From positions 1 to 45,773 of the IMG/VR virus record IMGVR_UViG_3300031976_000716: 45,773 bases of DNA, one strand, 5' to 3'. Under the pieces are notes generated by a model. The model saw nothing but the letters and a program-made list of their open reading frames with translations. It ran no database searches and was not told where the DNA came from. The position numbers were made by a program, and so were the translations under genes. This DNA comes from a virus. Positions 14,804 to 43,066 of the stretch are shown in pieces; position 1 is the first letter of the stretch; each line of letters begins with the position of its first letter.

Positions 14804-15051
14804 TGGCAAGGGTCGAACTGACATTCCAGCCGCGCCTGCTGGCGGGACCGGAGGCCGCGCGATACATCGGCATCAGCGAGGCCAACCTGCGCACCCTGGG
14901 GCTGCCCCGCCGCATCTTGGGCAAGCGCCGCCTCTATGACCGATATGACCTTGATGCGTTCGTCAATTCCATGGAAATCGAAGGGCAACAATTCGAAACG
15001 CTGGAAGAGGAACAGGCGGAATGCGACAAGCTGTTTGGGGCGGGAAGCTGA
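14803..15051 (+). CDS. excisionase-like HTH protein
   Basis: The 82-residue protein carries a MerR/excisionase-type HTH at residues 10-50: GPEAARYIGISEANLRTLGL, then a basic wing (RRILGKRRLYDRYDLDAF). It is immediately upstream of, and overlaps, the integrase gene, which is the usual place for an excisionase. It would bend attP DNA and steer integrase towards excision. A general MerR-like regulator of int is the alternative. The start at 14803 is chosen by coupling to the previous stop. Confidence 0.7.
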   Translation: MARVELTFQPRLLAGPEAARYIGISEANLRTLGLPRRILGKRRLYDRYDLDAFVNSMEIEGQQFETLEEEQAECDKLFGAGS

Positions 15052-25906: not shown

Positions 25907-27034
25907 TCAGTCGTAGTATGATTGCATGAACGTGTCGGTCACCATGCGCACCATTTCAGGCTGCACATGGACCGCATCATCTTTCCAAGCAAGACCGCGT
26001 GGAGACATGCTGACCATTTCGTAACTCGGAAAATAATCGACGTAGTCATATATTCTGCTAACAGTTTCCGCAGCCGTGCGCAGGGTGCTTTTTGACCCAA
26101 TGCTGGCTGGAATTATATCTCTTAACGAAAAAGTTGAACTTGGAACCGGCGACACGGTGACGATGATTTTGACGCCATCTTTTCTGTTCTCGGCTATCAT
26201 CTCGATAAGCCTTTTTAAAACATGAACAATATCGTCATAGCCAAAATCTACGAAGTCAAATAGATCGCTGCGCTTGACCAGGAAATTGCCGCTCGGCGCA
26301 CGGTTCATGATCAATCCATTTTTGTTTTCACGCCAAGACTCAGTCAGGCCCAGAGTCATGATAACGACATCGGCTCTGTTCACCTTCCGCATTCCTGCAT
26401 CCACTGACGCTCGGTTTTCCAATGCCTCGTCTTTTGAGGCTAGTGCCAGACCAGCTGCGTGGGGGTCAAACCACCTTCCATCTGCCAATTCTAGCAGGCC
26501 ATTTTCTGAAACGTTGTTCCCGTAGAAGGCGCGATGAACATCAAAGAACATGGAATGCGTTGTGTATTTGTGAAATACGCCACGGCTTATCTTCCCTGCT
26601 GGCACGCCGCCACCCATCTGCTTTTCTTCTCGCCAGCTTTCATATTTTTCGGCGATTACCCCGTGTCCAGCCAACAGAAGCGGCACCTTATGGCTTTGAA
26701 GCGCATTCTCAATTTCTCGCGCGAAGCACGAGCCAATGGTGAATACCGCTTCATCCTTCGATATTTTGAACTTCGGCTTGTGCGTGACCGACATGCGGCC
26801 ACCACTGGATAACCTTGCCTTGGCAGAGTTATGCCCAATATTCCATTGCCGCGCTTCATTTTGCTTGGCAAAGCCTAGTGCTTCCTTCGCCGGGTATGAC
26901 ATTGATGTGCCGGACACCTCCAAGGTCAATGATGGCTGGCCGCTAGAAACCATCTGTAAAGTCCCTCTCACAAGTCTTTTGGTGCAATTTTCAGTTGCAG
27001 AATGGACCACAGAGAGGCTTTCGGAAAGGGGCAT
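25907..27034 (-). CDS. GSCFA-family (SGNH-like) esterase-type protein
   Basis: With the ATG at 27034 the protein has 375 residues. The family-naming motif GSCFA is at residues 101-105 (VFTIGSCFAREIEN), with a predicted catalytic serine at the C-preceding position. The family is related to SGNH/GDSL hydrolases that remove acyl groups from polysaccharides. The gene is visibly richer in A and T than its neighbours, which suggests recent acquisition. It follows the spike gene by 17 bases but has no clear ribosome-binding site, so coupling may be needed. A deacetylase acting on host O-antigen or capsule is the best guess. Confidence 0.75.
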   Translation of the reverse strand: MPLSESLSVVHSATENCTKRLVRGTLQMVSSGQPSLTLEVSGTSMSYPAKEALGFAKQNEARQWNIGHNSAKARLSSGGRMSVTHKPKFKISKDEAVFTIGSCFAREIENALQSHKVPLLLAGHGVIAEKYESWREEKQMGGGVPAGKISRGVFHKYTTHSMFFDVHRAFYGNNVSENGLLELADGRWFDPHAAGLALASKDEALENRASVDAGMRKVNRADVVIMTLGLTESWRENKNGLIMNRAPSGNFLVKRSDLFDFVDFGYDDIVHVLKRLIEMIAENRKDGVKIIVTVSPVPSSTFSLRDIIPASIGSKSTLRTAAETVSRIYDYVDYFPSYEMVSMSPRGLAWKDDAVHVQPEMVRMVTDTFMQSYYD

Positions 27035-27051
27035 TATCAGGAGAGTTGGCT

Positions 27052-28668
27052 TTAGACCGAATTCCCGTTGAAATCGATCCACGCCGAGCCGGTCCACATG
27101 ATGGGCTTGCCGAGGCTGGTGTCGTAATACGTGCCGGTGTTTCCTGCACCATAGCTGGGACGGTTGCCCGTCGTGCCGCTGCGCATGATCGGACCCAACC
27201 GCGTGATGACCTCGGTGCTTGCGCCCTTATCCGCGATGATGTGCGCGGTGTCATAGCTGCCGTAGTTGCCGATGACTGGAACCGTCGGTCCCGTGAAGCC
27301 TTGCGCTTCATAGCGGTTGTGGTTGCCGCCTGTGATGTCCAGCAGGCCAAGCTCACTCGTTGCCTGGATGGCAATGATGTTTTTGCTGCCACTGTTTCGC
27401 AAGACATACCCATCCACACCCAAGGCTTGCTTTTCGGCGGTGATGTGCAGGCTGTTATAGTTGCCCGTGTTGATGAAGTGCCGGTTGCCCGTGATGTTGT
27501 AGGTGTAGACGTCGAACCGGCAATGCGATCCGGTGTTCAGAACGCCTGCCGTTTGCGCCGTTTCAATATTCACGCCAATGAACGACGCCCCCCCGCTGGC
27601 GTTTTTGATCCCGTAGCGGTGCTTGTTGGTATGGAAGCCCTTGCGCCAGATCGCGCCGTTCGTCCAGCGGATCAGTTTCGTCGCCGTCACTGCGTCATAG
27701 GTGTTGTCGGCTAGCTGCCCCGGCGATGCGATGTTGATGTTGGTCCAGTTACTGTCGCTTATCTGCCAGTCGATGCCGTGACCGCCGCAGACGTCGATGA
27801 ACACACCTTCAAGGTTGGCATTGTAGGGGCTGAAGCCCGAGCCGCTGACGTTCATGTAACTAGCCCGCAGGCCGTGGCGCGGGGCGTCCTTGATGTAGAC
27901 GTTCCGCAATGTGAAGTCGCGTCCGTAGAGGTTTACACCATCGCCCCGTGCCGAAGTGTCCGCGCCGTTGCCCGCCGCATTGGCATTGAACAGCAGGTTC
28001 TCGAAGATGAACGTCTGCGATCCAGCCGCCGCGTCATTGCCTGCTGTTGCTAGCGACGTGAAGTTGCGCGTTTCTAGCAGGGTGTCGGCCATCCCGTCTT
28101 TGGCCTTGATCTCCGCGCGGCCCGCGTGACCTCTGAGCGAAACCTTCGCATCATGCAGCAGCTTCTGGCCAGTGATCCATGCGCGCCCCGTCGAGGGAAA
28201 ATAGACCGTTCCGCCGCCCTGCAATGAAACGGCATCCATAGCCGCTTGGATTGCCGCCCCGTCATCAGCCGCCCCGTCATTCACAGCCCCGAAGTCAAAA
28301 GGCGTCGGGCCAGCGTTGCGCTTGGCAAGGGCTGCGATGGTGGCCGTCTCAGCGACTTCATCGATCTGGTCGAAGATCTGATCCATTGCCGAGATGGCCT
28401 GCCGGGAATAGGCAAGGACCCGCACGGCATCGGAGACATAGCGGACCTCATAGATCTCACCCGTTGCAGCGGGGCCGCGCCAGGGTTCGGCAAGCGTGAT
28501 CTGCGTGTTGCTGTCAACGCTCTGGACGCTGACGGTCAGACCACGGGCGGCGAAGATGTCGCCATCACGGACGCCTGAAGAAAGCCAGTTGGTGTTGGTG
28601 CCGGTCACAACGGCACTATCGACCGACACCGAGACGGTGCCGACCTTGTAGCTTGACGGAAGGGCCAT
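27052..28668 (-). CDS. beta-helix tailspike (pectate-lyase-like)
   Basis: The 538-residue protein has an N-terminal attachment region (about 1-120), then a right-handed beta-helix beginning at GAVNDGAADDGAAIQAAMDA near 130, with repeated short strands and turns rich in N and G to about 470. The C-terminus (NRPSYGAGNTGTYYDTSLG, then WTGSAWID) is like the tip of other phage spikes. It probably binds and cuts surface polysaccharide. It is first in the receptor cassette after the tail chaperone-like gene. Confidence 0.8.
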   Translation of the reverse strand: MALPSSYKVGTVSVSVDSAVVTGTNTNWLSSGVRDGDIFAARGLTVSVQSVDSNTQITLAEPWRGPAATGEIYEVRYVSDAVRVLAYSRQAISAMDQIFDQIDEVAETATIAALAKRNAGPTPFDFGAVNDGAADDGAAIQAAMDAVSLQGGGTVYFPSTGRAWITGQKLLHDAKVSLRGHAGRAEIKAKDGMADTLLETRNFTSLATAGNDAAAGSQTFIFENLLFNANAAGNGADTSARGDGVNLYGRDFTLRNVYIKDAPRHGLRASYMNVSGSGFSPYNANLEGVFIDVCGGHGIDWQISDSNWTNINIASPGQLADNTYDAVTATKLIRWTNGAIWRKGFHTNKHRYGIKNASGGASFIGVNIETAQTAGVLNTGSHCRFDVYTYNITGNRHFINTGNYNSLHITAEKQALGVDGYVLRNSGSKNIIAIQATSELGLLDITGGNHNRYEAQGFTGPTVPVIGNYGSYDTAHIIADKGASTEVITRLGPIMRSGTTGNRPSYGAGNTGTYYDTSLGKPIMWTGSAWIDFNGNSV

Positions 28669-28677
28669 GCTTTAATC

Positions 28678-29121
28678 CTAGCTTGTTGGTTTTTCGGGCC
28701 AGACCGGGTTCGCAGGGTCTTCGGTCGTTTCGGGCATGTCGCGCAGTTCATCGCGATAGGCTTGCCATGTGGCATGCTGCTCTGTGGTCAGCCTTGCGTT
28801 GGGCAGGTCGGTCCAATCGCACTCGGCCAGACGCCGGTCGCGTTCGGCGCGCAAGGCCGTCCACAGGATCGCCTCGGCGGCTGCGTGTTCTGCTGCCGTG
28901 CGGGGGTCGATCCATGCGGTGCCGTTCCACCTCGCCCAAGGTCCGGGGCGGGGCGGGTATTCATTAAAACCGCTGCCAGACCAATAGTGCAGGTCCGGGT
29001 CCGGGTCGCCGGGGTGGTAGTCTTGCCCCGCCCCGACATTCAGCAGCAGATGTTCCAGATCGGGCGCTTCCAGAACCTTGGCGACGACACCAGACATCTC
29101 GTCAAAGATGGCGTATTTCAT
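28678..29121 (-). CDS. phage tail assembly chaperone-like (tail fibre assembly) protein
   Basis: The C-terminal 75 residues carry the pattern LRAERDRRLAECDWTDLPNA, then LTTEQHATWQAYRDELRDMP, typical of phage tail assembly chaperones (Phage_tail_APC). The N-terminal half includes GPWARWNGTAWID. These proteins help fold or attach tail fibres. It overlaps the fibre gene before it by four bases (ATGA). Confidence 0.75.
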   Translation of the reverse strand: MKYAIFDEMSGVVAKVLEAPDLEHLLLNVGAGQDYHPGDPDPDLHYWSGSGFNEYPPRPGPWARWNGTAWIDPRTAAEHAAAEAILWTALRAERDRRLAECDWTDLPNARLTTEQHATWQAYRDELRDMPETTEDPANPVWPEKPTS

Positions 29122-32100
29122 CGCTTCACCCCCAAGGCGACCATGCTGGCCCTGCCGGAAATGCTGTCATTCACGGCACTCCAGTAGATGCTGTATGTTC
29201 TGGTCGCCGACCCGGACCCCGTGTCGTAGTAGATGCCGCTCGGCCAGTCGGTGCGCGCCCGCATGTTCGTGCGCTCTCGCAGGACCGTTGAACCCCGCCG
29301 CAGGCTGAAGTCCCACGCAGAGTCGGTGCTGTTCCCGAAGCTCTGCTCGATGCCCCACAGGATGATGACGGGCACGCCGACAGGAACCGACATGGTCAGG
29401 CTAAGGATTTCTCGCAGCGTTCCGTTGTTGCCAAGGAACGTTGACCCCGTCACCCCGACGGGAACCGTGACTGCATTGCCTGCAATATACAGTTCATCGA
29501 TACTGCCGACCCTGATCCGCGCCTCGTCCATATAGACGACGCCGTTATCCACGATGAACGGGATCGACTTGGATGCCGCAGGTCCGGGACCCGATGCGAT
29601 GGCAAAGCGGTCCACATCGAAGACCGCCTGCGTCGTTCCGTCAGACCGAGCGTCCAGATACATGGCAGCCGAATGGGCTTCCCCGTCCGCCGTGACCTCT
29701 GCTCGCAGCCCGATCCGCGCCTCCACCCCGGATGGCTTGCTTTCGCCCGTCACCCGAAGCTGGCCGGATGCCGTGCCGCGATTGGTTTTGGCAGTAACCT
29801 GCGTGATCGCGTCAGCCTGCGCCGAAAGCCCGTCCTCGGTCGCATCGACCCGTGACACCAGCGCCTGCGTGGCACTGGCAACCGAGTCATCGATCGACGC
29901 TTCTACGCTGTCGATCCGCGAACCAAGCGCGCTATCCTGCTGCGCCCTGGCGATCTCCTCGGTCGCCACGCGCGCGTCAACAGAAGCTATATCGCCGCCG
30001 GCGATATCAAGCGATGCCTCCAATTCCGTGGTGCGGATTGCGGCAGCTTCCTGCGCCGATGTCAGGACAAGTATGTCCTGATTGAACGCTGCCACACTGC
30101 TGTTGAACTGCGCCGTCAGCGAAGTCTGTTGGCGGGCGAATGCCACCTGATCCGTGATGACCGTCTCGATACGCTCGTCAAAGCTGGCTCTGGCGTTGCC
30201 GATCTCCGTGGTCAGGCTGCGGCGCAGCTCGTCACGGGCCAGAAGGTTGCCAAAATCGGCTTCGGCTGTCTGGGCGATGACCTCATTGATCTCGTCGCGA
30301 ACATCCCGAAGATAATCCCCGGTGCCGTCCATCCATTCATCGAAGTAGGCCAGGTCCTCGCGGACCTCGTTCTTGATCTGCTCGACATCCACATCCAGCG
30401 GGCCAAGGCGCACGTCCGGCGTGGTCACGACGTACCACAGCGACCATGCCGACTTGGGCGTCAGGTCCGAAATCAGCCGCGCCCGGACCTCATACGCCAC
30501 CGCAGGAAGCACGTTGCGCAGATACCAGACGAACGGCTCACCGAAGCGGGCCAGCCGGTCGATCTCCTGATCCGTGTCGCCCAGAACGCGGGCTTGGATC
30601 TGGATGTTCGTCACGCCGGTCTCATTGCCGTCGCAGGACACCTTGATTGCCGCAGCGCGCGCCCGGTTGGCTTCGTCGGTCAGGATCACGCCCTCGACCA
30701 GCAGGCCACGGATGGGCTGCACGAATGCCGTCTGCTGCTTCGGCGGGACAATCGAAATCGGGGCCTCGAAGTCCGACGACCAGTCATAATCCGACGGGTC
30801 GATTTCCCGCAGGCTGACCAGCACGTTCATGCCGGGGGTCTTGCTGACGCTCTCCACCAGGAAACGCTTGTTCACATAGCCGTTGCGCTGGCTGGTCCAC
30901 GACACCGTGTCGATGCCGGGTTCCAGCGCATAGGCTTCGGGCGGCAGGAAGAACTGATGCCGACGCATGCGGCGGAAGTCCCGCATCTGCGACCGCATCA
31001 GGCGCTGAACCTGCTTGCCGTAGGGCGCGGCAGGGTAGCTCATAGACGTGGGCAGGTAGCGCCCGCCGTCATCGGCCAGCGCCTCGGCGTCGATGTACTG
31101 AACCGCGTCCTTGCTGGTCCAGCCCTCGCCCGGTTCGGGATAGGTGGCCGACAAGGCGTTGTAGGTATCAGCGACGGGATAGAACGGCTTGAAGCTCTGC
31201 CCCTCGGTGATCAGCACGCTGTCATCGGAGAAGCTCAGCGCCGAGGTACCAGCGATGCCGACGATAGGCTTGATGGCCCCGCCGACTTCCGCAAAGCGCA
31301 TGGTGGCCGCGCGCCCGATTTCCTCCAGCACATCAGCCGGAACCTGGCTGACCAGCACCTCCAGCCCGCAGCGATAGGCAGGCTCGGTGCCGCCCCCGGC
31401 AAGCGTCACAGTCGCATCGCATTCGTTGGCAGCCGCGATCCATTCCGCCGACGGCAGACGCCACGCGGGCATGTTCTTGCCGCCCCAGACCCATTCCCCG
31501 CCGAAGTAGATGCCGCGAATGATGTTGTAAGCGATAACAGCCGGGTTAGTCGAAGGCTGCCACGTCGCGGGGTTGTCCCACCGCTGCGAGCCGGATCCGC
31601 CATTGGTGCTGTCGAAGCGCAGGTCATAGACGGCCAGCGGGGTCGCCTTGAACATGAACTTCGGATAGCTGGTCAGCGTATCGTCGTCATACCGCGTGGT
31701 GACGATGACGTATGCTTTGCCCTTGCCGATGGCGTTGGCCGTCCACGGGTAATCTTCATCCGACCCGAAGACATAGCGCAGGAACGGGTCAGCCGCCGTC
31801 TGCGTGCCGTCCACCAGCTTGACGGTGATCCGGTTGCCGTCATCCGACATGTTCGTCAGGATGCGGCCCATATCCAGCGCGCCAGCGGGGACGGTCTCGC
31901 TTTCAGTCCAGCCCTCGTGATCAAAGACCAGCCCAAGCGGCAGTTCGATGTTGCCGTTGATCGGCGTGATATGCGCCCGACGATCCGGCACGAAATCGCC
32001 CGTCTCGTCATTCACCCAGACTGCATCCAGACCGCGCACGGGAACGGCGCTGATCTCGATGACCTCGGTGATGAAACGCGTGTTCTTGCCCCAGCTGCCG

Positions 32101-32396
32101 ATATACTTGCGCTGCCCTGCGGTGACGTAATCGCCCAGGGTGAAGCGCAGCGGCTGATCGTCGCCCATCTGGACGTCGAACTGGACCTTGGTTTCGCCGC
32201 CCTGTACCTGCTTGCCCATGATGAAGGTGCCGATCGCGTTCAGCGCGGTTCCGATGGCCGTAGACACCAGGAAACCAGCAACGCCACCCGCAGCGATTGT
32301 GCTGCCGACCCATGCCGCCACAGCAGCGACGGGGCCAGCATGTGCGGGGGCAGCCGCCGCGACCAGCGCGACGAGGGCAAGAGCAAATTTATTCAA
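29118..32396 (-). CDS. host specificity/central tail fibre protein, gpJ-like
   Basis: The 1092-residue protein is like lambda J. It has an N-terminal tail-tip domain (about 60-560) with a hydrophobic opening of about 50 residues (FALALVALVAAAAPAHAGPV and a second apolar segment). FN3-like strands follow (590-690), then a helical coiled region (710-890) and a C-terminal receptor-tip region with DUF1983-like features. It would form the central tip of the tail and contact the host receptor. The signal-like start is probably a hydrophobic tail-tip insert, like that of lambda I. It follows the NlpC/P60-like gene. Confidence 0.85.
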   Translation of the reverse strand: MNKFALALVALVAAAAPAHAGPVAAVAAWVGSTIAAGGVAGFLVSTAIGTALNAIGTFIMGKQVQGGETKVQFDVQMGDDQPLRFTLGDYVTAGQRKYIGSWGKNTRFITEVIEISAVPVRGLDAVWVNDETGDFVPDRRAHITPINGNIELPLGLVFDHEGWTESETVPAGALDMGRILTNMSDDGNRITVKLVDGTQTAADPFLRYVFGSDEDYPWTANAIGKGKAYVIVTTRYDDDTLTSYPKFMFKATPLAVYDLRFDSTNGGSGSQRWDNPATWQPSTNPAVIAYNIIRGIYFGGEWVWGGKNMPAWRLPSAEWIAAANECDATVTLAGGGTEPAYRCGLEVLVSQVPADVLEEIGRAATMRFAEVGGAIKPIVGIAGTSALSFSDDSVLITEGQSFKPFYPVADTYNALSATYPEPGEGWTSKDAVQYIDAEALADDGGRYLPTSMSYPAAPYGKQVQRLMRSQMRDFRRMRRHQFFLPPEAYALEPGIDTVSWTSQRNGYVNKRFLVESVSKTPGMNVLVSLREIDPSDYDWSSDFEAPISIVPPKQQTAFVQPIRGLLVEGVILTDEANRARAAAIKVSCDGNETGVTNIQIQARVLGDTDQEIDRLARFGEPFVWYLRNVLPAVAYEVRARLISDLTPKSAWSLWYVVTTPDVRLGPLDVDVEQIKNEVREDLAYFDEWMDGTGDYLRDVRDEINEVIAQTAEADFGNLLARDELRRSLTTEIGNARASFDERIETVITDQVAFARQQTSLTAQFNSSVAAFNQDILVLTSAQEAAAIRTTELEASLDIAGGDIASVDARVATEEIARAQQDSALGSRIDSVEASIDDSVASATQALVSRVDATEDGLSAQADAITQVTAKTNRGTASGQLRVTGESKPSGVEARIGLRAEVTADGEAHSAAMYLDARSDGTTQAVFDVDRFAIASGPGPAASKSIPFIVDNGVVYMDEARIRVGSIDELYIAGNAVTVPVGVTGSTFLGNNGTLREILSLTMSVPVGVPVIILWGIEQSFGNSTDSAWDFSLRRGSTVLRERTNMRARTDWPSGIYYDTGSGSATRTYSIYWSAVNDSISGRASMVALGVKR

Positions 32397-32399
32397 GGG

Positions 32400-32819
32400 T
32401 CAGTCCCCGACTTTGAACGCCCGGATCATGTCCTTGCGTGGCCTGTGGCCGTGTCCTGTCTCGGTCATCACGACCAGTCCGGTCGCGTCCACCATGCAAA
32501 TCGCCTCGGTGATTGGGCCTTCAGCCGGGATCACGCCAATGTCGCCAAGACGGGCAAAAGCGGGATTGATCTCCGGCAGCTTCATCGCCACGAAGTCGCC
32601 AAGAGTCTCCGCACCGGCTTCCTTCATCAGCTTCAGCGCGCCGCGCGAGGTGGCGTATCTGCCGCGATACCCGCGTGCCAAGTCCTCGCCCGTGATCGCC
32701 TCGACAATCGCCGCAGCGAAGCCGATTGCGCAGTCATGCTTGCCCCACACGAAGGGGTCTTGGCGCTGGCGATCCGTCTCTGCGGACAGCCTCGCGCGCC
32801 AGTCGTCGCGGCGCTTCAT
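32400..32819 (-). CDS. NlpC/P60-like (DUF6950-type) tail-tip peptidase
   Basis: Starting at 32819 (GAGGGG seven bases upstream) the protein has 139 residues. It has a catalytic-type cysteine in FVWGKHDCAIGFAAAIVEAI near residue 30, followed by YRGRYATSRGALKL. This is the layout of phage tail cell-wall peptidases that sit in the GTA gp14/lambda K position. It probably hydrolyses a peptidoglycan stem peptide during DNA entry. A longer frame from 32852 would overlap the previous gene. Confidence 0.75.
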   Translation of the reverse strand: MKRRDDWRARLSAETDRQRQDPFVWGKHDCAIGFAAAIVEAITGEDLARGYRGRYATSRGALKLMKEAGAETLGDFVAMKLPEINPAFARLGDIGVIPAEGPITEAICMVDATGLVVMTETGHGHRPRKDMIRAFKVGD

Positions 32820-32823
32820 GCCG

Positions 32824-33444
32824 TCACCCCTCTTTGTAATACCAACGGACATTGCGCGACTTGATGCTGCCCGAATACTTGCTGAAATCGTCGCCCGCCT
32901 GCCGCTTCTGCTGCTGGGCGTGTGACGACTTGGCCGGGTTCACAGCCGTCAGCTGCGACATGGCATCGGACCGGACAGACAGCCCGATCTGGCCTTCCCC
33001 GTTCACGTCGGGCGTGGCGATGTCCACGTCATCCACGATGCCCACCCAGACAAGCTCAGGCGTGCCCGTCAGGCGTCCCTTCGTCCATGTGGTGGCATGC
33101 ACCTCGCAATAGGCTAGACGCACGTCATAGCCGCGCACAAGCTGCTGCGTGGCATCCGCGATCTGCGAGAACGTGACGGTAATCGGGTTGTCCGTCAGGT
33201 CCACCACATACTGGATGCCCTCGACCGACAGGTTGGTGTTGCCGAGGAACGTCCGGCTGACCAAACCGCCCGTCGTCGCGCGGACGTTGATCGTGATGTC
33301 CTCGTCGCCGGTCCACAGCCCCATGGGCCGCGCCTCGCCCGTATCCCGGTCCTTCGCCACGATATAGACGAAGTACACCGGCGCGATGCCGTCATCCCGC
33401 GCCGCCGTGAGGCTGTTGAATAGTTCGGCGTCGATCTGCTTCAT
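32824..33444 (-). CDS. minor tail protein, GTA gp13/DUF2163-position
   Basis: The 206-residue protein (start 33444, ATGA overlap) is beta-rich (YFVYIVAKDRDTGEARPMGL, then TGGLVSRTFLGNTNLSV). It occupies the place of the GTA gp13/DUF2163 protein, between the distal-tail and peptidase genes. The family call is by position and general layout. It probably helps form the tail tip baseplate. Confidence 0.7.
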   Translation of the reverse strand: MKQIDAELFNSLTAARDDGIAPVYFVYIVAKDRDTGEARPMGLWTGDEDITINVRATTGGLVSRTFLGNTNLSVEGIQYVVDLTDNPITVTFSQIADATQQLVRGYDVRLAYCEVHATTWTKGRLTGTPELVWVGIVDDVDIATPDVNGEGQIGLSVRSDAMSQLTAVNPAKSSHAQQQKRQAGDDFSKYSGSIKSRNVRWYYKEG

Positions 33445-34073
33445 GGCTTCTGCACCAAGCTGATGGATGCGCCGTCGCCCCACCGCCCCTTGAAGTTGCT
33501 GAACGGCTGGAACCCACCGGGCGGGACCATCACCTTCATGCGCGGCGCTGCCAGCCGAACGGATGCGCCGACCGTCACCCCGAACGGCACAACCGGGCGA
33601 ACCGTCAGATTGCTGACGTTACCGGTGCCGCTAGCTGTCCCGCTTTCCGCGAAGGTGGCGAAGTATTCCCGCCCGCTGGTATGCGTGACGCTGAAGTAAT
33701 CGCCCGCCGTGATCTCGAAGCCCGCAGGAAGCCCCGCAAGGCTGATCGCGTCCCGGTCGGTCGATATGGCCCCAACCGTCACCCCGCCGCCTGCATTGCC
33801 GCCCACAGGCCCCTCGTAGAACGGGTCAGCCCACAGGAATGGCGTCGAACCGTCCAGAGCGTAGATCTTGGCGTTGATCTCGCGCGCATGGGCGGCTGAC
33901 TTGCTGTAGAGGTCGATGCTGACATGCCAGAGCGGCTTTGCCAGTGAGTATGTCCAGAACCGACCGTCGCCGGACCCGGACATCTCGTCTTTGCGCCGCA
34001 ACTCCAGATTGATCCTGTCGCCTGTCAGGCAGTCGGCCAGGAAGGACAGCGGATATGGATAGGTGAGGGCCAT
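33441..34073 (-). CDS. distal tail protein, GTA gp12/DUF2460-position
   Basis: The 210-residue protein directly follows the tape measure gene (one-base overlap). It begins LTYPYPLSFLADCLTGDRIN and has the beta-rich layout of distal tail proteins. Its middle (FSVTHTSGREYFATFAESG) is rich in strands. It would close the tail tube at the tip. The position matches GTA gp12. Confidence 0.7.
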   Translation of the reverse strand: MALTYPYPLSFLADCLTGDRINLELRRKDEMSGSGDGRFWTYSLAKPLWHVSIDLYSKSAAHAREINAKIYALDGSTPFLWADPFYEGPVGGNAGGGVTVGAISTDRDAISLAGLPAGFEITAGDYFSVTHTSGREYFATFAESGTASGTGNVSNLTVRPVVPFGVTVGASVRLAAPRMKVMVPPGGFQPFSNFKGRWGDGASISLVQKP

Positions 34074-36277
34074 TATCGCTTCCTTGGGTTGGCTTGGATG
34101 CTCTGCACGCGGGTTGGCAGCGCCTTGTCATAGGACGACAGGCCCTGGCGAACGCCGGACGACACCATCTCCTGGATCTCCGCGTTGCCGCGCGCCCCGG
34201 TGACGTTAATGTTGATGTTCACCTCGCCAGCGCCGCCGCCAGCCTGCCCCATTGCCCGCTGCGCCTGCGCGCCGTTTAGTATCGTGCCGCTGACGTTAGG
34301 GACGAACAATTCCGGCTCATTCTCGCCCACAACGTAAGCGCGTCCAGCCGAGACAGACCCGCCGCCCGCACGAAAGCCGCTGATTCCGCGAAGCGCGCCG
34401 GACAGGGCGTCATTGCCTGCCACCTGAGTGCCGCCAAACAGCCCGCCGAACAGCGATCCCAGATTAAAGCCGCCGCCGCTGAACTGCGACGATAGCGCGT
34501 TCTGGATGCCGCTGTTGATGATGTCCGCCGCGATCTGCTTGAACACCTGCGCCAGCCCATCCCGCAGGCTCTCGCCCGCCAGAAGCGTTCCGGCCATGCT
34601 ATCGGCCACGCCTTGGATGGCGTCGTCAAACTGCTGCTGGCTCGTCTCAGCCGCCTCCAGTTCAGCCGTCAGCCGCCCGACCTGCGCCGCCTGCGCGTCG
34701 ATCTGCGCGTTCAGTTCAGCGTTGACCGGGATGCCGCGCTTCTTGGCCTCGTCCAGAAGCTCCCACCGGGCTTTCGCCGTGGCGACTTCCTCGTTGGACT
34801 TGCCGACCAGGCTGATCTGGCGTTCCAGATTGGCAAGGTCTTTCTCGATGTCACCGAAGAATGGGGCTTCGGCGCGTGCTGCGCGTCCAGAACCGCCGCC
34901 ACCGCCGCTTGACCGTCCGGACGACTTGCGCCCGCCGCCAGATGAACCGGCTTGAGACTTGCGAAAGGCCTCCTCGGCAGCTGAAACCTGTTCCTCAAGT
35001 GCTGCGATTTCTCGTGCGCCATTGGCGATATCTGCCGCTTGACCGTTCAGGCTATCCAGAGCGCCGTAGTTGCCGCGACTAATTGCAGCGTAAGCCGCAG
35101 AACCCGACTTTTCGAGATAGTCCTGCTGCGCCAACTGACCAGCGCGTTCGACCGGCTGACCTACAGTGTTGAGCTTGATGCGAGCAGTCGCCAGAGCCTG
35201 CCTCTGCGCTGCTTGGATGCCCTGAACGACGTTATTCAGTTCAGCCATTGCGCCGCGAAGCGTGGCAGTCAAACCCGCTGCGGCAGAATTGGCGTCATCA
35301 ATGACCGGAGCAATGCCGCTGGATGCCACCGCAACACCGTTCGCGGCATCTTCCGCATCGCGTGTCGCTTCTGCTAGTTCGTAGGCGCTCAGCGAGCCTT
35401 CAGCAGCGGCACGGGCACCTTCAAGGAGCGAACCGTTCATATCGTCGCTTGAGCTGACAGCTTGCTCTAGGAACCGGGACACCTCACCGATCGCTGCCGC
35501 TTTCTCTTCCACCGAACGCGCCGCTTGTGCGTCCGACAAAAGCGCCATCAACTCGCGGGCTTGTGGCAGTGTGAGGCCAAATTGCTCTTGCAACTTTGCA
35601 GCCAGAGTTTCGAGGCCGGAACTGCCCTCTCCGAACTGCTGGATCTCTCCATCAGCTAAGGTAATGTAGCTCTGCAGGTCCTGAAAAGTCGCTGCCAGCG
35701 CCGTGATATTGTCACGAAGTGCTGAGGCCGCCTCTAGGCGAGACAGGCGGGCCACCTGCTCAAGCAATTCTCTCGCAGCACCGGTTGCCTCACCATATTT
35801 TTGCACCAGATCAGCAGTCGGTGCGACAGCCGCTTCCGCCGCCTTTTTGTAATCGCCAACAGCCGTTTCAAGCCGATCAAGGGCCTTGCCGAGGTCTTCG
35901 GCTTCTTTGCCCATGCCGAGAAGCGAAGCTGCCAGTGGAACACCAGCAGCAACGACAACACCGAACACCGCGCCAAGCGCACCGAAGCCGCCAAGCAACT
36001 GGGGCAGCTGTTGGCTAAGTGCGCGCACGGCACCCTGACCGCCCGATATCTGAACGAAGATATCCTGAAGCTGGAAGCTGACATTCTGCAATTGCGCCGT
36101 CGATTGGCGCGACATGCTTCCAAACGAATTGCCAATCTGCTGGTTGCTCTTGACGAAGCCGCGTTCCGCGCGCTGTGCCGACTTAATCGCCCTAGACTCA
36201 ATGCGAGCCAACTGCTGGAGAAACTTCTGTTCGGTCAGACCAATTGGAAGTTCAAGTCCGGCTTCACCTTCCGCCAT
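34073..36277 (-). CDS. tail tape measure protein
   Basis: The 734-residue protein has the helical, alanine- and glutamine-rich composition of tape measures. It has a hydrophobic segment at about 95-120 (GGFGALGAVFGVVVAAGVPL), a glycine/serine-rich linker near 430 (GSSGGGRKSSGRSSGGGGGS), and coiled regions on both sides. It sets tail length and enters the cell with DNA. At 734 residues the tail would be near 110 nm by the usual 1.5 Å per residue rule. It overlaps the frameshifted chaperone stop by 14 bases. Confidence 0.9.
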   Translation of the reverse strand: MAEGEAGLELPIGLTEQKFLQQLARIESRAIKSAQRAERGFVKSNQQIGNSFGSMSRQSTAQLQNVSFQLQDIFVQISGGQGAVRALSQQLPQLLGGFGALGAVFGVVVAAGVPLAASLLGMGKEAEDLGKALDRLETAVGDYKKAAEAAVAPTADLVQKYGEATGAARELLEQVARLSRLEAASALRDNITALAATFQDLQSYITLADGEIQQFGEGSSGLETLAAKLQEQFGLTLPQARELMALLSDAQAARSVEEKAAAIGEVSRFLEQAVSSSDDMNGSLLEGARAAAEGSLSAYELAEATRDAEDAANGVAVASSGIAPVIDDANSAAAGLTATLRGAMAELNNVVQGIQAAQRQALATARIKLNTVGQPVERAGQLAQQDYLEKSGSAAYAAISRGNYGALDSLNGQAADIANGAREIAALEEQVSAAEEAFRKSQAGSSGGGRKSSGRSSGGGGGSGRAARAEAPFFGDIEKDLANLERQISLVGKSNEEVATAKARWELLDEAKKRGIPVNAELNAQIDAQAAQVGRLTAELEAAETSQQQFDDAIQGVADSMAGTLLAGESLRDGLAQVFKQIAADIINSGIQNALSSQFSGGGFNLGSLFGGLFGGTQVAGNDALSGALRGISGFRAGGGSVSAGRAYVVGENEPELFVPNVSGTILNGAQAQRAMGQAGGGAGEVNININVTGARGNAEIQEMVSSGVRQGLSSYDKALPTRVQSIQANPRKR

Positions 36278-36437
36278 TCCATTTATCTCCCAATTCGCAA
36301 AGCTTGTCGTATTCTTCGTCTGTCATCGGATCGCCCTGGTGGGCGTGCCCGCCACCCTGTGAGCGGTTCCAGCCCGCCACGCAGGCCGTGTATTCCCACA
36401 GGCTCATCAGCTTTATTTCGCGCGGCGCGAAACCCAT
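36264..36437 (-). CDS. tail assembly chaperone, frameshift extension (gpT-like)
   Basis: A 57-codon frame (MGFAPREIKLMSLWEYTACV..., ends in GDKWNGGR) lies between the GTA gp10-like gene and the tape measure. It is -1 relative to the upstream frame and is open upstream past that gene's stop, back to the slippery site at 36506-36500. The ATG at 36437 has no ribosome-binding site. The short, tryptophan-containing helical protein has the look of the second half of a lambda G/GT pair. It is most likely made only as a -1 frameshift fusion, as in many siphophages. Confidence 0.7.
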   Translation of the reverse strand: MGFAPREIKLMSLWEYTACVAGWNRSQGGGHAHQGDPMTDEEYDKLCELGDKWNGGR

Positions 36438-36469
36438 CGCAGCGCCGTTGCCATAGAAGCTGGAGAACT

Positions 36470-36844
36470 TTATTCGGGCGGGTTCTCCGCCGCCTCCGGC
36501 TCCCCCACCACGTCATGCTCCTTGCCCTTGAGCGAGTTGCTGATGATCGTGAAGGCCAGCAGGTTCAGTTCTGCGATATCGCCGTCAATGAGGGCGTTCT
36601 TGGCTTTCAGTTCTGCCTTCGCCCGATCCATTCCCGCCCCGATCAAGCCAAGCCGCAGGCAAGCCATTACTTCGCGGATCTTGACCGGGGAATATGCGAG
36701 ACTGCCACGCTGAACGCCCTGAGAGAGACGGAAACGGAGGTCCAAGACCCCCGCGTCAGTCTGGTCGTCAAGGGCCTCAAGCTCGCCAATGCGAAGGAGA
36801 AACTCGTCTTCGCCGCAGCACCAGTTGGCCTTGATCGGTTCCAT
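36470..36844 (-). CDS. tail assembly chaperone, GTA gp10-like (gpG-like)
   Basis: The 124-residue protein matches the GTA gp10/TAC_11 family in size and layout: FLLRIGELEALDDQTDAGVL near residues 15-34, then IREVMACLRLGLIGAG. It lies between tail tube and tape measure, where gpG sits in lambda. The last 13 codons are read in two frames because a -1 shift at GGGGGAG (36506-36500) would skip its stop. It shares one base with the tail tube stop. Confidence 0.8.
   Translation of the reverse strand: MEPIKANWCCGEDEFLLRIGELEALDDQTDAGVLDLRFRLSQGVQRGSLAYSPVKIREVMACLRLGLIGAGMDRAKAELKAKNALIDGDIAELNLLAFTIISNSLKGKEHDVVGEPEAAENPPE
36500..36506 (-). other. candidate -1 ribosomal frameshift site (GGGGGAG)
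   Basis: On the minus strand, G-GGG-GAG is in register with the GTA gp10-like frame (codons GGG 36505-36503, GAG 36502-36500). A -1 slip re-pairs GGG exactly and continues in the open frame that ends in the gpT-like extension. The -1 frame is closed by TGA only four codons upstream, so the slip must happen in the 15-codon window that contains this site. The A-site match is imperfect. Lambda uses GGGAAAG at the same place. Confidence 0.6.
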
Positions 36845-37293
36845 CAGATCGTCGTGTTGAAGGTCAGTTCGCCATCGGAGACGATCGACACGGATGCGTT
36901 GGCTTTACCACCACGCTCGCCGGAGATTTCCAGACTGGTGATGTGAATGTTGCCCGACCAGAAGCGGCCATTCACCGTATCGTCAGCCTTCCCGATGACG
37001 ATGCGCGCGGGAATGCTTTCGGTCGTGTTGAAGGCGTTCCACCACAGATCGACCGCCTCGGCAGCCAGAACGCCGTTCCCGCTTCCGCTGAAGTCCAGGC
37101 TTTCCACGCCGCGCTCGATCCATGCGGCCATCTCGGGGTCATCGCAGTCGGGGACGGTAACGTCCTGGGTGTTCTTCGAGAAGGTCAGCGTGTGGTTGGT
37201 CAGACCGCAGGGGCGGATGTATTGACCGGGCGTGTCGGGATCTTCCAGGAAGATCGCGACCGAGCTGCCCACATAGGTAATCGGCTTCGCCAT
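36844..37293 (-). CDS. major tail tube protein
   Basis: The 149-residue protein starts MAKPITYVGSSVAIFLEDPD and continues as a beta-rich fold with DVTVPDCDDPEMAAWIERGV, a layout typical of siphophage tail tube proteins. It lies between the tail completion genes and tail chaperones and has CAGGAG 8-9 bases upstream of its start. It polymerises around the tape measure. An own promoter in the 247-base gap upstream is possible. Confidence 0.85.
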   Translation of the reverse strand: MAKPITYVGSSVAIFLEDPDTPGQYIRPCGLTNHTLTFSKNTQDVTVPDCDDPEMAAWIERGVESLDFSGSGNGVLAAEAVDLWWNAFNTTESIPARIVIGKADDTVNGRFWSGNIHITSLEISGERGGKANASVSIVSDGELTFNTTI

Positions 37294-37540
37294 TTGTTAG
37301 GCTCCTGATGTGATTTGCCTTGCCCAAGGGCGAGATGGGCGCAGGGCCTAACGGTCCCTGATCTCTTGCACGCGACCCCCTGCCCTTTCCAGGCAGGCCC
37401 GCGTCAGGCCGGGGCGAACCTCGCCAGCCTTAAATGCGATAATGACGTTAGGTCTTGGCTTCCAATCGAATGGCGCAAGAACCAGCCATTTTCTTTGTTT
37501 TGGCATCGGCAACGCCTATGTTTCACAAAAGGAGGGCCGA
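37294..37540. other. intergenic region between tail tube gene and moron
   Basis: The gap holds leaders for two divergent genes. Reading right, TTGTTT (37495-37500) and TATGTT (37517-37522) with 16 bases between form a plausible promoter for the plus-strand gene at 37541. A hairpin CCTGCC/GGCAGG (37379-37384, 37392-37397) and a GCCCA/TGGGC inverted repeat (37322-37340) lie in the leftward leader. No T-run follows them, so they are not clear terminators. No further gene is seen. Confidence 0.55.
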
Positions 37541-37813
37541 ATGTTCAGATTCGCAATTTTTGTCGCCGCCACTTCCATCACCCACCCTGCGATGGCGCAG
37601 ACCGCGCAATGCCATGACGTTGTGACCGTCGCAGAAGCCTATTCTCAGCACGTTCGTATTTTTACGGACATGGCCAATTGGTGCATGGACGATCGCATGC
37701 AGCAGGAAGCCTGCCAGCGGCTAGGCAATTTGGCTGTGGATGGCATGTCTGCCGAGAAGGACAGCATGGCAAGTGCATCTCTGGCTATGCTCGCTCGCCA
37801 GTGCCCTGATTAA
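37541..37813 (+). CDS. secreted cysteine-containing moron protein
   Basis: The 90-residue protein starts at 37541 with AAGGAGG six bases upstream and its own predicted promoter. It has a signal peptide (MFRFAIFVAATSITHPAMAQ; predicted cleavage after AMA at residue 19) and a mature helical domain with four cysteines (24, 48, 58, 88), enough for two disulfides. It is the only plus-strand gene inside the minus-strand structural block, and its stop overlaps the neighbour's stop (TTAA). That is the mark of a moron. A periplasmic exclusion or lysogenic-conversion factor is likely; the exact function is unknown. Confidence 0.75.
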   Translation: MFRFAIFVAATSITHPAMAQTAQCHDVVTVAEAYSQHVRIFTDMANWCMDDRMQQEACQRLGNLAVDGMSAEKDSMASASLAMLARQCPD

Positions 37814-38217
37814 GCCGCCTCGACCTCGTAGCGCAGGCTGATGATGCCGTGCGTCGTGAGGCCGTCGGGATCGGTGAGAATGCGGGTCAACGGCGTTTCC
37901 GCCAGCACCAGCGCGTTGTCCGTCAGTTCAGGCAGCGCCAGCAACACCCGCCGCGCTTCCGCGACGATCCGCTTGCAATGCACCCGGCCAACCTTGCGGG
38001 ACCATGCGTCCAGCTGGATGTTCACCTCTTGCAGATCGATGCACTCAACGTCCTCGTAGATAGTAAATTCCGGCCCGAAGCTGATGTATCCCTCGGCCTC
38101 CCCGAACGGCGAAGAAGGCACCCGGTCATAGACGCCGCTGATCAGCGCCATCATATCCGCATCTGCCGTAAGCGCCTCGTAGATGGCGGCTTGCAGTTCT
38201 TCCGACGGGCTGCTCAT
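37810..38217 (-). CDS. DUF3168-type tail completion protein
   Basis: With the start at 38217 (ATGA overlap with the upstream gene) the protein has 135 residues. It fits DUF3168/tail terminator proteins: helical opening (SEELQAAIYEALTADADMMA), DRVPSSP, then a beta-rich half with DAWSRKVGR. It probably caps the tail tube at the head end. An ATG three codons upstream is also possible. Confidence 0.75.
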   Translation of the reverse strand: MSSPSEELQAAIYEALTADADMMALISGVYDRVPSSPFGEAEGYISFGPEFTIYEDVECIDLQEVNIQLDAWSRKVGRVHCKRIVAEARRVLLALPELTDNALVLAETPLTRILTDPDGLTTHGIISLRYEVEAA

Positions 38218-38711
38218 GATGTCCAAGCCTTCCTGATCGCCCGAGTGATAGCACCCCGGACCCGCGTCTTGTTGGCCCGCCAGGCGGGGTAAAAGAACGG
38301 GTTTGCGGGCATGTTCTTCGTGCCGAACTCTTGCAAGCGGGCGTTCTGGAATACCGTGCCGCGCCGAACGCCGGACTTCTTGCCCGCCGCCTCGCCTGTC
38401 ACAAGCGTGCTGGTGTCGCCAGCCTTCAGCATGACCCCAATGAAGTCGGCCCTGCGGTTCGTCTTGACGCCTGCTGATGCGCTACCTGCGCGGCTGGCAT
38501 ATGCACCCTTTGGACCGCCAGCCAGCGCGATGCTGTCCACGTCCTCGACCCGGATTGACTTCAGCAGCTTGCCTTCATCGCGCGGGGCAAGGAAGCGCAT
38601 TGCAGATGCGGTCTGCTCACCGCCATTCCGCGCCGCATTCTTGGCCGCAGCCCTGACAGCAGCCGCCTTGCGCCGAAACATGGCCTGCACCTGCGGGATG
38701 CCGTTAACCAT
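38214..38711 (-). CDS. HK97 gp10-like tail completion protein
   Basis: The 165-residue protein has the HK97 gp10 layout: basic helical start (AMFRRKAAAVRAAAKNAA), APRDEGKLLKSIRVE near residue 45, and NARLQEFGTKNMPANPFFYP near 130. It joins tail to head. Start 38711 is chosen because it follows the upstream stop closely; the ribosome-binding site is weak. An upstream ATG at 38741 lies inside the preceding gene. Confidence 0.8.
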   Translation of the reverse strand: MVNGIPQVQAMFRRKAAAVRAAAKNAARNGGEQTASAMRFLAPRDEGKLLKSIRVEDVDSIALAGGPKGAYASRAGSASAGVKTNRRADFIGVMLKAGDTSTLVTGEAAGKKSGVRRGTVFQNARLQEFGTKNMPANPFFYPAWRANKTRVRGAITRAIRKAWTS

Positions 38712-39039
38712 CTGCGACCCCCGACTCCGCCAGAAACTCATACATCATCCGGTCATCGCTTGGTCGCGGGTATTCGCGGATATTGTATGTTCTGCCGTTG
38801 ACCATGCAGCGCATGCCCGGCTCTACCAGATCGGTTTGAGGGTCTTTTCGCACGGTGATGATGACCGGCTGCCGGCCCTCCAGACGTGCGGCTATAACTG
38901 TCTCTGATCCGCGCAGATAACGAACATTGCACCAGCGCGAAAAGTCGCCAGCCCAGGTTGAAACTACGTTCCCGAACCCGTCTGGTTCATCTCGCCTGCT
39001 CTGAAATGTGACCCGATCACGAAGTTTACCCGCCTGCAT
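38704..39039 (-). CDS. head-tail adaptor/head closure protein
   Basis: The 111-residue protein has the SPP1 gp16-like head-tail adaptor pattern: AGKLRDRVTFQSRRDEPDGF at the start, then VRYLRGSETVIAARL and a beta-rich end with YNIREYPRPSDD. It closes the portal after packaging. The start at 39039 is coupled (TGATG). Confidence 0.85.
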   Translation of the reverse strand: MQAGKLRDRVTFQSRRDEPDGFGNVVSTWAGDFSRWCNVRYLRGSETVIAARLEGRQPVIITVRKDPQTDLVEPGMRCMVNGRTYNIREYPRPSDDRMMYEFLAESGVADG

Positions 39040-39326
39040 CACGCCACCGCAGGGTCGCGGTCGCGCCGCAGCAGGTCTCGAACATGATCCGGAAGGGCAC
39101 CGCCATCCAGTTCCCCGCCACGGTCGCCATAAAGTCGCGACAGAACGTGCAAAATTGCAGCTCGAACGTGCGGCGGCACAGTTGGCGCAGTCCAGCCATG
39201 ATCAGGCCGCTTGATATAGTCTGTCACTACATCCGACGCCTGGTCGATCAAGTCCTGGATTAGCAAATCCTCACTGTCATGCTCAACTCGCAGCCAGCGC
39301 TTAGCCATTGTTAGATCAACAAGCAT
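39039..39326 (-). CDS. head-tail connector protein (gp6-like)
   Basis: The 95-residue protein begins LVDLTMAKRWLRVEHDSEDL, LIQDLIDQASDVVTDYI, which is the helical signature of HK97 gp6-like connectors (DUF-type gp6). The start at 39326 has AAGGAGG four bases upstream and overlaps the previous stop. It forms a ring below the portal. A longer frame starting at 39419 lies inside the collagen-like gene. Confidence 0.85.
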   Translation of the reverse strand: MLVDLTMAKRWLRVEHDSEDLLIQDLIDQASDVVTDYIKRPDHGWTAPTVPPHVRAAILHVLSRLYGDRGGELDGGALPDHVRDLLRRDRDPAVA

Positions 39327-40021
39327 CACGCCTCCTTGCCGTTGCGGCCCTTCTTGACCGACAAGCGCCAGTCGTCGCTGAGTCCCGGCTTGTTTTCGGT
39401 TGCCCGCTTGGCAATCCACATGGAACCGCCAAAGCTGACTGCATCGCCAGGCGCATATTCCTTGCCGTCGGTGAAGACGCCACGATCGAGGATTACAGGC
39501 ATATCGAAGGAAAAGACCCGCTTGGTCTCGCCCTTGGCAAACACCATCTTGAAGTTGCGTTCGCCGTCATATTCGATGCTCATGTCATCAAACCCGAGAC
39601 CGTCGCGCCCATCAGCACCGTCCTTGCCGTCAGCGCCCTTTGTGCCGTTCAGGCCATCCTTGCCGTCAGCGCCATCCCTGCCGTCACTGCCAATGACACG
39701 GCCAAGCGTCTTGATTGCCCCGGTCGATGTGGTCAGAACCAAATTCCCATCCCGATCGATCATGGCGTCCGAGACACCGATGCCATCGATCCCATCGCGG
39801 CCAGCGGCACCGTCTTTTCCGTTCAGCCCGTCCTTGCCGTCGATGCCGTCGCGACCATCGGCACCGTCAGCGCCATCCTTGCCGTCGATGCCATTGAGAG
39901 GGGCGGGCGCTGGTGCATTCGAAAACTGCTTTTCCAGGTCCGCGATGCGGGCCAGCAAAGGGGCGGTATGTTCTTTGATCACCGACACCGTGACCTGCGC
40001 GATTGCTTTCTCAGTGAGCAT
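39326..40021 (-). CDS. collagen-like repeat protein near the portal
   Basis: The 231-residue protein has a helical N-terminus (1-38), two collagen-type Gly-X-Y blocks (about 43-81 with KDG/RDG triplets, and 110-144), and a C-terminal carbohydrate-binding-like region (EYAPGDAVSFGGSMWIAKRA). The collagen blocks would form a trimer. Its place between portal and connector genes is unusual. It may be a head decoration or neck fibre. It overlaps the portal gene by 11 bases. Confidence 0.8.
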   Translation of the reverse strand: MLTEKAIAQVTVSVIKEHTAPLLARIADLEKQFSNAPAPAPLNGIDGKDGADGADGRDGIDGKDGLNGKDGAAGRDGIDGIGVSDAMIDRDGNLVLTTSTGAIKTLGRVIGSDGRDGADGKDGLNGTKGADGKDGADGRDGLGFDDMSIEYDGERNFKMVFAKGETKRVFSFDMPVILDRGVFTDGKEYAPGDAVSFGGSMWIAKRATENKPGLSDDWRLSVKKGRNGKEA

Positions 40022-41345: not shown

Positions 41346-41596
41346 TCCTTCGCTTCGGCGATTTTCTCGCGCAGCGTTTCGGCATCCCAGCCATGATACG
41401 GCTTCTTACCGACGGCTTCCTGGTAGTCAGCACGCAGGCTCGTCAGATCGTCATCTGCGCGGGCCTCGCTTTGTGTTTTCTGGCCTGCCTGAACATCCGC
41501 TGCGACCATATCGCGCCGGTTGTATCCAAGCCTCGACAGGATGCGGGCATAGCGCGGATCTTTCGACTTCATCGCGCGGGTCATGTATCCAGCCAT
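41342..41596 (-). CDS. small protein between capsid and portal (84 aa)
   Basis: A basic N-terminal half is followed by a C-terminal LEM/HeH-like motif (DYQEAVGKKPYHGWDAETLREKI). Such small genes are common in HK97-type modules and may affect portal or capsid assembly or DNA binding. The function is not established. The transcript order is capsid, this gene, portal. Confidence 0.65.
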   Translation of the reverse strand: MAGYMTRAMKSKDPRYARILSRLGYNRRDMVAADVQAGQKTQSEARADDDLTSLRADYQEAVGKKPYHGWDAETLREKIAEAKE

Positions 41597-41650
41597 CTGT
41601 CATCCTCCGATCAAGTAGGAGGCAGGGCGCGAACGCCCCGCCAATTGGGC

Positions 41651-43066
41651 TTAGTTGCCCCAGTTCACGCTGCCCAGAACGGCGACGGCATTGCTGCGGC
41701 GCTTCATCCAGTTCAGGATGCGCTCAGCGCGGAAAGCCACGCTGTTGGTCTGGAACATCGACACCAGCTGCGAAGCGGTGGGGGTGACCGAACCGTGTGA
41801 GGGGTTGTCAGCCATCTCCAGCGATGCCTCACGGCTGAAATCGACCATCACGCCGCCTTCATCCGCGAAGTAGATCTCCGAAGCCTTCGCCAGTGCGACG
41901 ATCGCACCTGCTTCCTCTGCACCAGCCCCGTCGGGGTCGTAAGCCGTGGGGACGTAGGCCGAAACGATGACCGGCTTGCCCATGAAGGTTCCACCCTCGG
42001 CGGTGATGCCGGGGAATTCAGCCTGACCAAGCGGGTTGACCATCATCGACAGTGCTTCAGCAACGCCTTCCGGCATGATCCAGACCGAGCCGCTGGTGCT
42101 GCTGTTGTTCGTGCGGAACGCAGCCGACAGCGCGCGCATATCGGCGCGGATGGAGTCGGCGTCGGTGCCGCTCGAAATGATCGGGGTGACGCCGTTGGTG
42201 ATCGACGCAGGCGACACACCGGAAACGGCAGCCTTGGCCGGATCGATGAAGTCGATGTCCAGACGCTCACGCAGCGCAGCGGCCAGCTGGTCGCGGATCC
42301 AGGCGTCAGCAGCCAAGGACGAGCGGCGCAGCATCTCCTCGGTGGCAACTGCGATGTTCGCAACCTTCAGCGGCGTCAGGATATTGCGCCCGGTGCCGAA
42401 GCTGGTCAGCGGCTTTGCCTTGCCTTCCCCGACCCAGTAGCCCTGACCACCGCTGGTCTGCTCCAGGAACGGGACATCAAACGGAACGCGGCGCAGCGAA
42501 GGGACATTGCCGGTTCCGAACTTGCCCAAGATCGTCTGGGGGCGCAGGTATTCCACGAAGTCGGCAAATGCGCCGCCTTCCGTGATCAGGTTGCCTGCCC
42601 AGCTTTCGTTGCCGGTATTGGCGGCGGGAACGGCAGCCTTGACGAAGTGGCCATACACCGACGAGTCTTCGCCGTAATGGGCCTTCGCAACTTCGCGGAC
42701 GCTTTCGCCGTCCAGACGGGCCAGGGCCTTGACCTTGGCAATGCGGGCAAAGGCGATGCCGGGGGCCAGGGTTTCACTGCGCTTGATCTGGACGCCAGCG
42801 CGGGCCATGCCGCCATCGCGGGTGTTGCCGCCCGCAACAGGCTGAGCCGACTTTTCCTGAACGCTGTTCATCAGGCGCAGGCGCTTGATGTGACCGTCGA
42901 TCTCTTTAATCTCGGCTTCCAGGTTGTCGAATTCTTCCTGCTGGGCTTCATCCAGCGTGGCTTGCTCGTCGGCAGCCTTCTGCATGATTTCGTCCATCGC
43001 ACCGACGGTGGCGGCGCGTTTCTGTTCTGCTGCCGAAATCTGTTCGGCGTAAGTGGCTTTAGCCAT
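41651..43066 (-). CDS. major capsid protein (HK97 fold)
   Basis: With the start at 43066 (AAGGA eight bases upstream) the protein has 471 residues. A helical N-terminal delta region (about 10-75: EQISAAEQKRAATVGAMDEI) is followed by HK97-fold features such as LITEGGAFADFVEYLRPQTI and RVPFDVPFLEQTSGGQGYWV. The delta region is probably removed by the adjacent protease, leaving the mature capsid subunit. An ATG three codons upstream has no suitable spacing. Confidence 0.93.
   Translation of the reverse strand: MAKATYAEQISAAEQKRAATVGAMDEIMQKAADEQATLDEAQQEEFDNLEAEIKEIDGHIKRLRLMNSVQEKSAQPVAGGNTRDGGMARAGVQIKRSETLAPGIAFARIAKVKALARLDGESVREVAKAHYGEDSSVYGHFVKAAVPAANTGNESWAGNLITEGGAFADFVEYLRPQTILGKFGTGNVPSLRRVPFDVPFLEQTSGGQGYWVGEGKAKPLTSFGTGRNILTPLKVANIAVATEEMLRRSSLAADAWIRDQLAAALRERLDIDFIDPAKAAVSGVSPASITNGVTPIISSGTDADSIRADMRALSAAFRTNNSSTSGSVWIMPEGVAEALSMMVNPLGQAEFPGITAEGGTFMGKPVIVSAYVPTAYDPDGAGAEEAGAIVALAKASEIYFADEGGVMVDFSREASLEMADNPSHGSVTPTASQLVSMFQTNSVAFRAERILNWMKRRSNAVAVLGSVNWGN

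Follow-up and report, generated by a model that had tools for sequence, protein, structure and literature searches.

The DNA analysed here is a 45.8-kb virus record (the window, taken at its full length) in which a block of minus-strand genes of about 27 kb runs from the terminase genes to the endolysin gene. The window also carries a tyrosine integrase gene, so a temperate phage is probable. The plus strand has a single gene between about 18.7 and 45.7 kb of the window. This gene, which we call P0001, sits between the tail terminator and tail tube genes, and its stop codon and that of the tail terminator gene overlap by 4 bp. The features of the locus and its surroundings are as follows.

15021–16070, plus strand: tyrosine integrase of the window
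34073–36277, minus strand: tape measure protein, the centre of which (about 34877–35955) cannot be aligned to the relative L003
36844–37293, minus strand: major tail tube protein, from profile matches
37348–37506, minus strand: small divergent late gene (MPKQRKWLVLAPFDW...), matching PHROG 29233 (E 9e-7)
37493–37521, plus strand: weak candidate promoter CTTTGT-N17-CTATGT, in register in the relatives L003, L004 and L077
37525–37810, no strand assigned: replaced cassette of 286 bp, with 352 unrelated bases in its place in L003
37530–37535, plus strand: Shine-Dalgarno sequence AGGAGG, 5 nt before the ATG of P0001
37541–37597, plus strand: predicted Sec signal peptide, residues 1–19 (cleavage between AMA and QT), from sequence, hydropathy and a shuffle test
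37541–37813, plus strand: P0001, putative reverse moron encoding a 90-aa orphan protein, from codon score, Shine-Dalgarno sequence and synteny
37810–38226, minus strand: tail terminator (Tail_completion_gp17), from profile matches

An earlier note on this DNA had described P0001 as the sole plus-strand gene of the 27-kb minus-strand block, and this was borne out: the other sizeable gap in the late block, at 41346–41650, is filled by a minus-strand ORF. A second plus-strand gene considered at 41393–41800 was dropped, the gap being occupied by that ORF.

P0001 (MFRFAIFVAATSITHPAMAQTAQCHDVVTVAEAYSQHVRIFTDMANWCMDDRMQQEACQRLGNLAVDGMSAEKDSMASASLAMLARQCPD) starts with ATG and is 90 codons long. Its frame has the best codon score of the six (−0.06, with the other frames at −0.32 to −0.71), below the 0.2–0.39 of typical tail genes, and the gene has a GC content of 55% compared with 61% for the window. 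This atypical composition fits a newcomer gene and, in a gene this short, carries modest weight. Because 5% of mononucleotide shuffles yield an open frame of this length, ORF length is weak evidence for P0001, and the case for it as a gene is carried by the Shine-Dalgarno sequence, the frame, the signal peptide and the synteny.

Judging from its sequence, P0001 is likely to be secreted via a cleavable signal peptide. The N-terminus reads MFR-FAIFVAATSI-THPAMA/Q, the 10-residue h-region having a mean hydropathy of 2.27, and when the residues of P0001 were shuffled 2.9% of the shuffles satisfied the h-region rule and 1.5% also possessed an AxA site. P0001 does not satisfy a stricter 12-residue export rule. 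In place of an N-terminal membrane anchor the protein has a short h-region and the AMA cleavage site. The mature protein is predicted to comprise about 71 residues and to contain all four cysteines (positions 24, 48, 58 and 88). A single-sequence AlphaFold model of P0001, of poor quality (pLDDT 57), has four helices.

The ribosome-binding site and the four cysteines named in the earlier note were thus recovered, the signal peptide it proposed is likely, and its failure to recognise the family agrees with our searches, in which P0001 had no family match in Pfam, NCBIfam, PHROG, PADLOC or PDB. The sole other copy of P0001 is an identical contig fragment. No homologue was detected in a pattern scan of 84,980 species genomes or in 297 genomes of the order, and a single weak match, which sits in a 587-aa frame, was judged to be due to chance.

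The gap that holds P0001 is not otherwise empty, since the small divergent gene at 37348–37506, overlooked in the earlier note, has conserved copies in L003, L004 and L077. The start codons of this gene and P0001 are separated by 34 bp, so that any P0001 promoter must overlie the beginning of its minus-strand neighbour. The claim that P0001 has its own promoter was not confirmed: a standard sigma-70 promoter scan and a terminator search found nothing at P0001, and the one candidate is the weak box common to relatives, which scores 8/12 against the rhizobial promoter consensus. A search with that consensus allowing up to three mismatches does not select the site upstream of P0001. The box, as the pattern CTTTG-N18-CCTAT picked after inspecting the sequences, is retained in register in four relatives. 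It overlaps the start of the divergent gene, and the coding and ribosome-binding constraints of that gene could explain much of its conservation.

The closest relative, L003, aligns to the window at 86–92% DNA identity over positions 28412–38922 (10.5 kb), and the alignment breaks at three stretches: 34250–34429 and 34877–35955, both in the tape measure gene, and 37525–37810, at P0001. The corresponding slot in L003 holds an opposite-strand gene whose 111-aa product has a TM helix at its N-terminus as well as a helical hairpin containing two cysteines. The structure model of this protein's family is good (83.5) and consists of a long TM-stalk helix and a helical hairpin; a structural search with it gave no significant match. 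Relatives of the L003 protein occupy the slot of P0001 in L004 and L077. Homology between P0001 and the L003-type protein was considered and rejected (hhalign probability 0.3%, phmmer at noise level). We place the L003, L004 and L077 proteins in an opposite-strand TM family together with proteins of phages 16-3, RHph_Y3_1 and RHph_N28_2. P0001 resembles this family in slot or module, orientation, size and export signal, and several members have C-terminal cysteines, as P0001 does. In contrast, the anchor motif of the family, LKALVAxACVVVIxxGGY, is absent from P0001, and homology between the two is undetectable. L004 and L077 also carry two different HNH-endonuclease-like ORFs (recognised by eye; L004:5009–5695 and L077:3385–3972), which are oriented in the tail direction and separate the small gene from the tail tube gene, adjoining the moron slot.

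We surveyed 94 dereplicated loci encoding a tail terminator, with genes called by conservation up to the tape measure gene. Besides the slot between terminator and tube genes there is a second insertion slot directly before the tape measure gene, and many relatives have no cargo at the slot, or different cargo. At locus L051 the site is empty, with about 36 bp between the aligned flanks. Three loci that match L051 at 86–90% identity upstream of the insert and 76–84% downstream carry different inserts at this site: an exported protein in L038, a HicB–HicA pair in L050, and a methyltransferase-like ORF with others in L039. The HicBA pair (HicB assigned by Pfam, HicA by eye) lies on the minus strand 1067–1712 bases past the tail terminator gene, against the tail operon and before the tape measure gene. 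In L021 an opposite-strand 172-aa hotspot protein, MltR/HEPN-like by eye, is encoded on the minus strand 1461–1979 bases past the terminator gene. Cargo functions therefore vary, and not all of the products (among them HicBA and the MltR/HEPN-like and methyltransferase-like ones) are exported.

Among cultured phages, an opposite-strand gene occupies this second slot, or lies one gene beyond it, in 16-3, AP-16-3, NV1.1.1, RHph_Y3_1, RHph_N28_2, RHph_X2_25, RHph_TM3_3_14B, vB_MseS-P1 and RcapNL, and most of these genes, not all, encode an export signal. The second slot also holds opposite-strand genes in prophages of Mesorhizobium, Pelagibacterium, Aliihoeflea and Devosia. In Rhizobium phage 16-3 the gene is an unannotated ORF (MDTWLKMLIASACVVIIGGGGYLASLEY...; NC_011103, about 9037–9204, minus strand, which is L129:4010–4177) flanked by p016 and the tape measure gene, and its counterpart is annotated as hypothetical in AP-16-3 and NV1.1.1. 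Similarity searches with the 16-3 protein gave two weak matches (E 0.002 and 0.8), both of them opposite-strand genes that immediately precede the tape measure gene, and a profile match in a bacterial genome (L150) lies at what is apparently the same site, judging by the look of the neighbouring ORF. The LKALVA-type anchor motif recurs in several hotspot proteins, the outer domains of which differ. A cargo hotspot for opposite-strand genes therefore exists in related alphaproteobacterial siphophages. The same TM anchor motif is also encoded in another bacterial genome (L151:1339–1725, minus strand), where it adjoins an integrase-like ORF; genes beside an integrase occupy a place that is usually transcribed in lysogens.

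Antisense ORFs in the gaps of the hotspot are biased towards export. By one rough rule covering signal peptides and TM anchors, 15 of the 27 gap antisense ORFs are export-like, compared with 40/456 shadow ORFs and 8/145 same-strand genes (Fisher p 7e-9 and 3e-9, respectively). An earlier, stricter rule, which P0001 fails, gave 14/27 against 47/455 (p 4e-7) and 22/145 (p 9e-5). The direction of the bias is identical under both rules; all of these p-values overstate the significance, because both rules were devised ad hoc, the outcome of the first was known when the second was picked, and the loci are related to one another.

Taken together, these data make P0001 very probably a moron, that is, a prophage cargo gene. 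It separates genes that are neighbours in relatives, which lack it or have another gene in its place, and its GC content and codon score differ from those of its neighbours. The clean replacement in L003, the empty or varied sites and the opposite-strand exported genes in relatives argue for a reverse moron at a cargo hotspot. The moron reading of the earlier note is upheld on these grounds, together with the temperate character of the phage, and the swaps and absences at the locus show that P0001 is not an essential virion gene present in all relatives.

The function that we favour, by analogy and at about even confidence, is that of a lysogen-expressed, exported reverse moron acting most likely in superinfection exclusion of related siphophages at the step of DNA entry. 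Under this model P0001 would be a cargo gene placed against the direction of the tail operon and expressed in the lysogen, and its product a small, exported, helical, disulfide-bonded periplasmic protein. This protein would hinder DNA entry of related siphophages, plausibly by contacting the tape measure protein or the tail-tip conduit that crosses the periplasm, and upon induction late transcription, antisense to P0001, would switch the gene off. We infer export, disulfides and lysogen expression; exclusion and its target are proposed by analogy only.

Exclusion at DNA entry is favoured because the envelope proteins beside the tape measure gene recall HK97 gp15 by their position, because Ltp and Glo offer precedents, and because the placement of P0001 is like that of TaiEcA. 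HK97 gp15 blocks DNA injection (PMC10883804) and, as is probable for P0001, is a small moron directed at the envelope and located among the tail genes of a temperate siphophage. In the HK97 record it lies immediately before the tape measure gene, a location equivalent to the second hotspot slot, runs in the same direction as the tail genes and has an annotated terminator after it. It is a predicted inner-membrane protein, whereas P0001 lies on the opposite strand, with the terminator and tail tube genes on either side, and is probably soluble; no PHROG or Pfam match connects the two. The HK97 'reverse moron' gp23 is also set against the tail operon but lies before J and has an annotated terminator, and P0001 is likened to it by placement alone. 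A precedent for an exclusion protein that is soluble in the periplasm is Glo, described as one in the temperate Vibrio phage K139 (PMC3952083); its phage type and host differ. Ltp of TP-J34 and Sie2009 of Tuc2009 are exported prophage proteins that block DNA entry, with the tape measure protein as the target of Ltp (PMC3952083, PMC10883804). Unlike P0001, both act in Gram-positive hosts and are lipid or TM anchored, and ltp lies in the lysogeny module. TaiEcA of phi80 is a defence gene set against the late operon, and late transcription has been proposed to silence it (PMC11364771); for a related arrangement in 80alpha such a shut-off was shown (PMC11087260). TaiEcA shares with P0001 the opposite strand in a late operon; it differs in interfering with tail assembly, not acting at the envelope, and in its place in the genome. 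Counting against exclusion, P0001 lacks the membrane anchor that most exclusion proteins and most of its hotspot neighbours possess, and our searches gave neither a homologue of known function nor a solid promoter.

Co-divergence of the tape measure protein was rejected as a sign of the target of P0001. The window and L003 share 31% identity in the tape measure centre and 95% in the tail tube, but L032 and L033, both without a moron, show the same pattern (40% and 97%), and L038, L050 and L051 have similar tape measure proteins despite their different cargo. This control makes co-divergence unusable as target evidence. From L032 and L033, exchange of the tape measure core seems to be common in the group.

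It is possible, if rather unlikely, that P0001 is instead a reverse moron serving host fitness, for instance as a periplasmic inhibitor or stress protein, and so an agent of envelope lysogenic conversion not directed at phages. All of the moron evidence supports such a fitness factor equally, the hotspot cargo is mixed (HicBA, for example), and a soluble four-cysteine periplasmic protein would suit many roles of this kind. However, the recurrent excess of envelope proteins beside the tape measure gene is more easily explained by a role in phage entry, and P0001 matches no host family. We consider it improbable that P0001 acts in the lytic cycle, its antisense transcript or its product tuning late expression or working at lysis. 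Any P0001 transcript would read into the terminator gene, given the 4-bp tail-to-tail overlap, and prophages that switch states via antisense 'noncontiguous operons' are a precedent (PMC11087260), but the content of the slot is unrelated among close relatives and missing in many, unlike that of a core regulator, and antisense control needs no signal peptide. That the ORF is spurious is very improbable, for although its length is reached by chance in shuffles, its codon score is low, its only other known copy is identical and it fails one of the two export rules, it has a good Shine-Dalgarno sequence, the best of six frames and an export-like start rarely seen in shuffles, and relatives have real opposite-strand genes there, such genes being annotated at the neighbouring site in cultured phages.

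Extending the exclusion reading beyond P0001, we tentatively suggest that alphaproteobacterial temperate siphophages may keep a dedicated, fast-swapped exclusion locus opposite their tail genes, which late transcription would silence and each product of which would block particular competitors. Such a locus might encode one conserved membrane anchor joined to varying periplasmic domains, or unrelated soluble disulfide-bonded proteins such as P0001, and could have escaped notice even in 16-3, a classical Rhizobium phage. Orphan though it is, P0001 marks a recurrent place in these genomes for envelope-directed cargo set against the late operon. An opposite-strand ORF between the tail terminator and tape measure genes can serve as a search rule for new exclusion or conversion proteins, and several such hotspot proteins are found in cultured temperate phages, 16-3 among them.

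Two other genes of the window drew our attention. A minus-strand gene among the tail fibre/spike genes (25907–27097) encodes a protein with a 'GSCFA'-like motif (FTIGSCFAREIENAL) and had no match in PHROG. Adjoining the portal gene, the minus-strand gene at 39326–40021 encodes a collagen-like Gly-x-y repeat protein, the C-terminal part of which matches domains that occur in portal protein families (PHROG 1289 and 2271).
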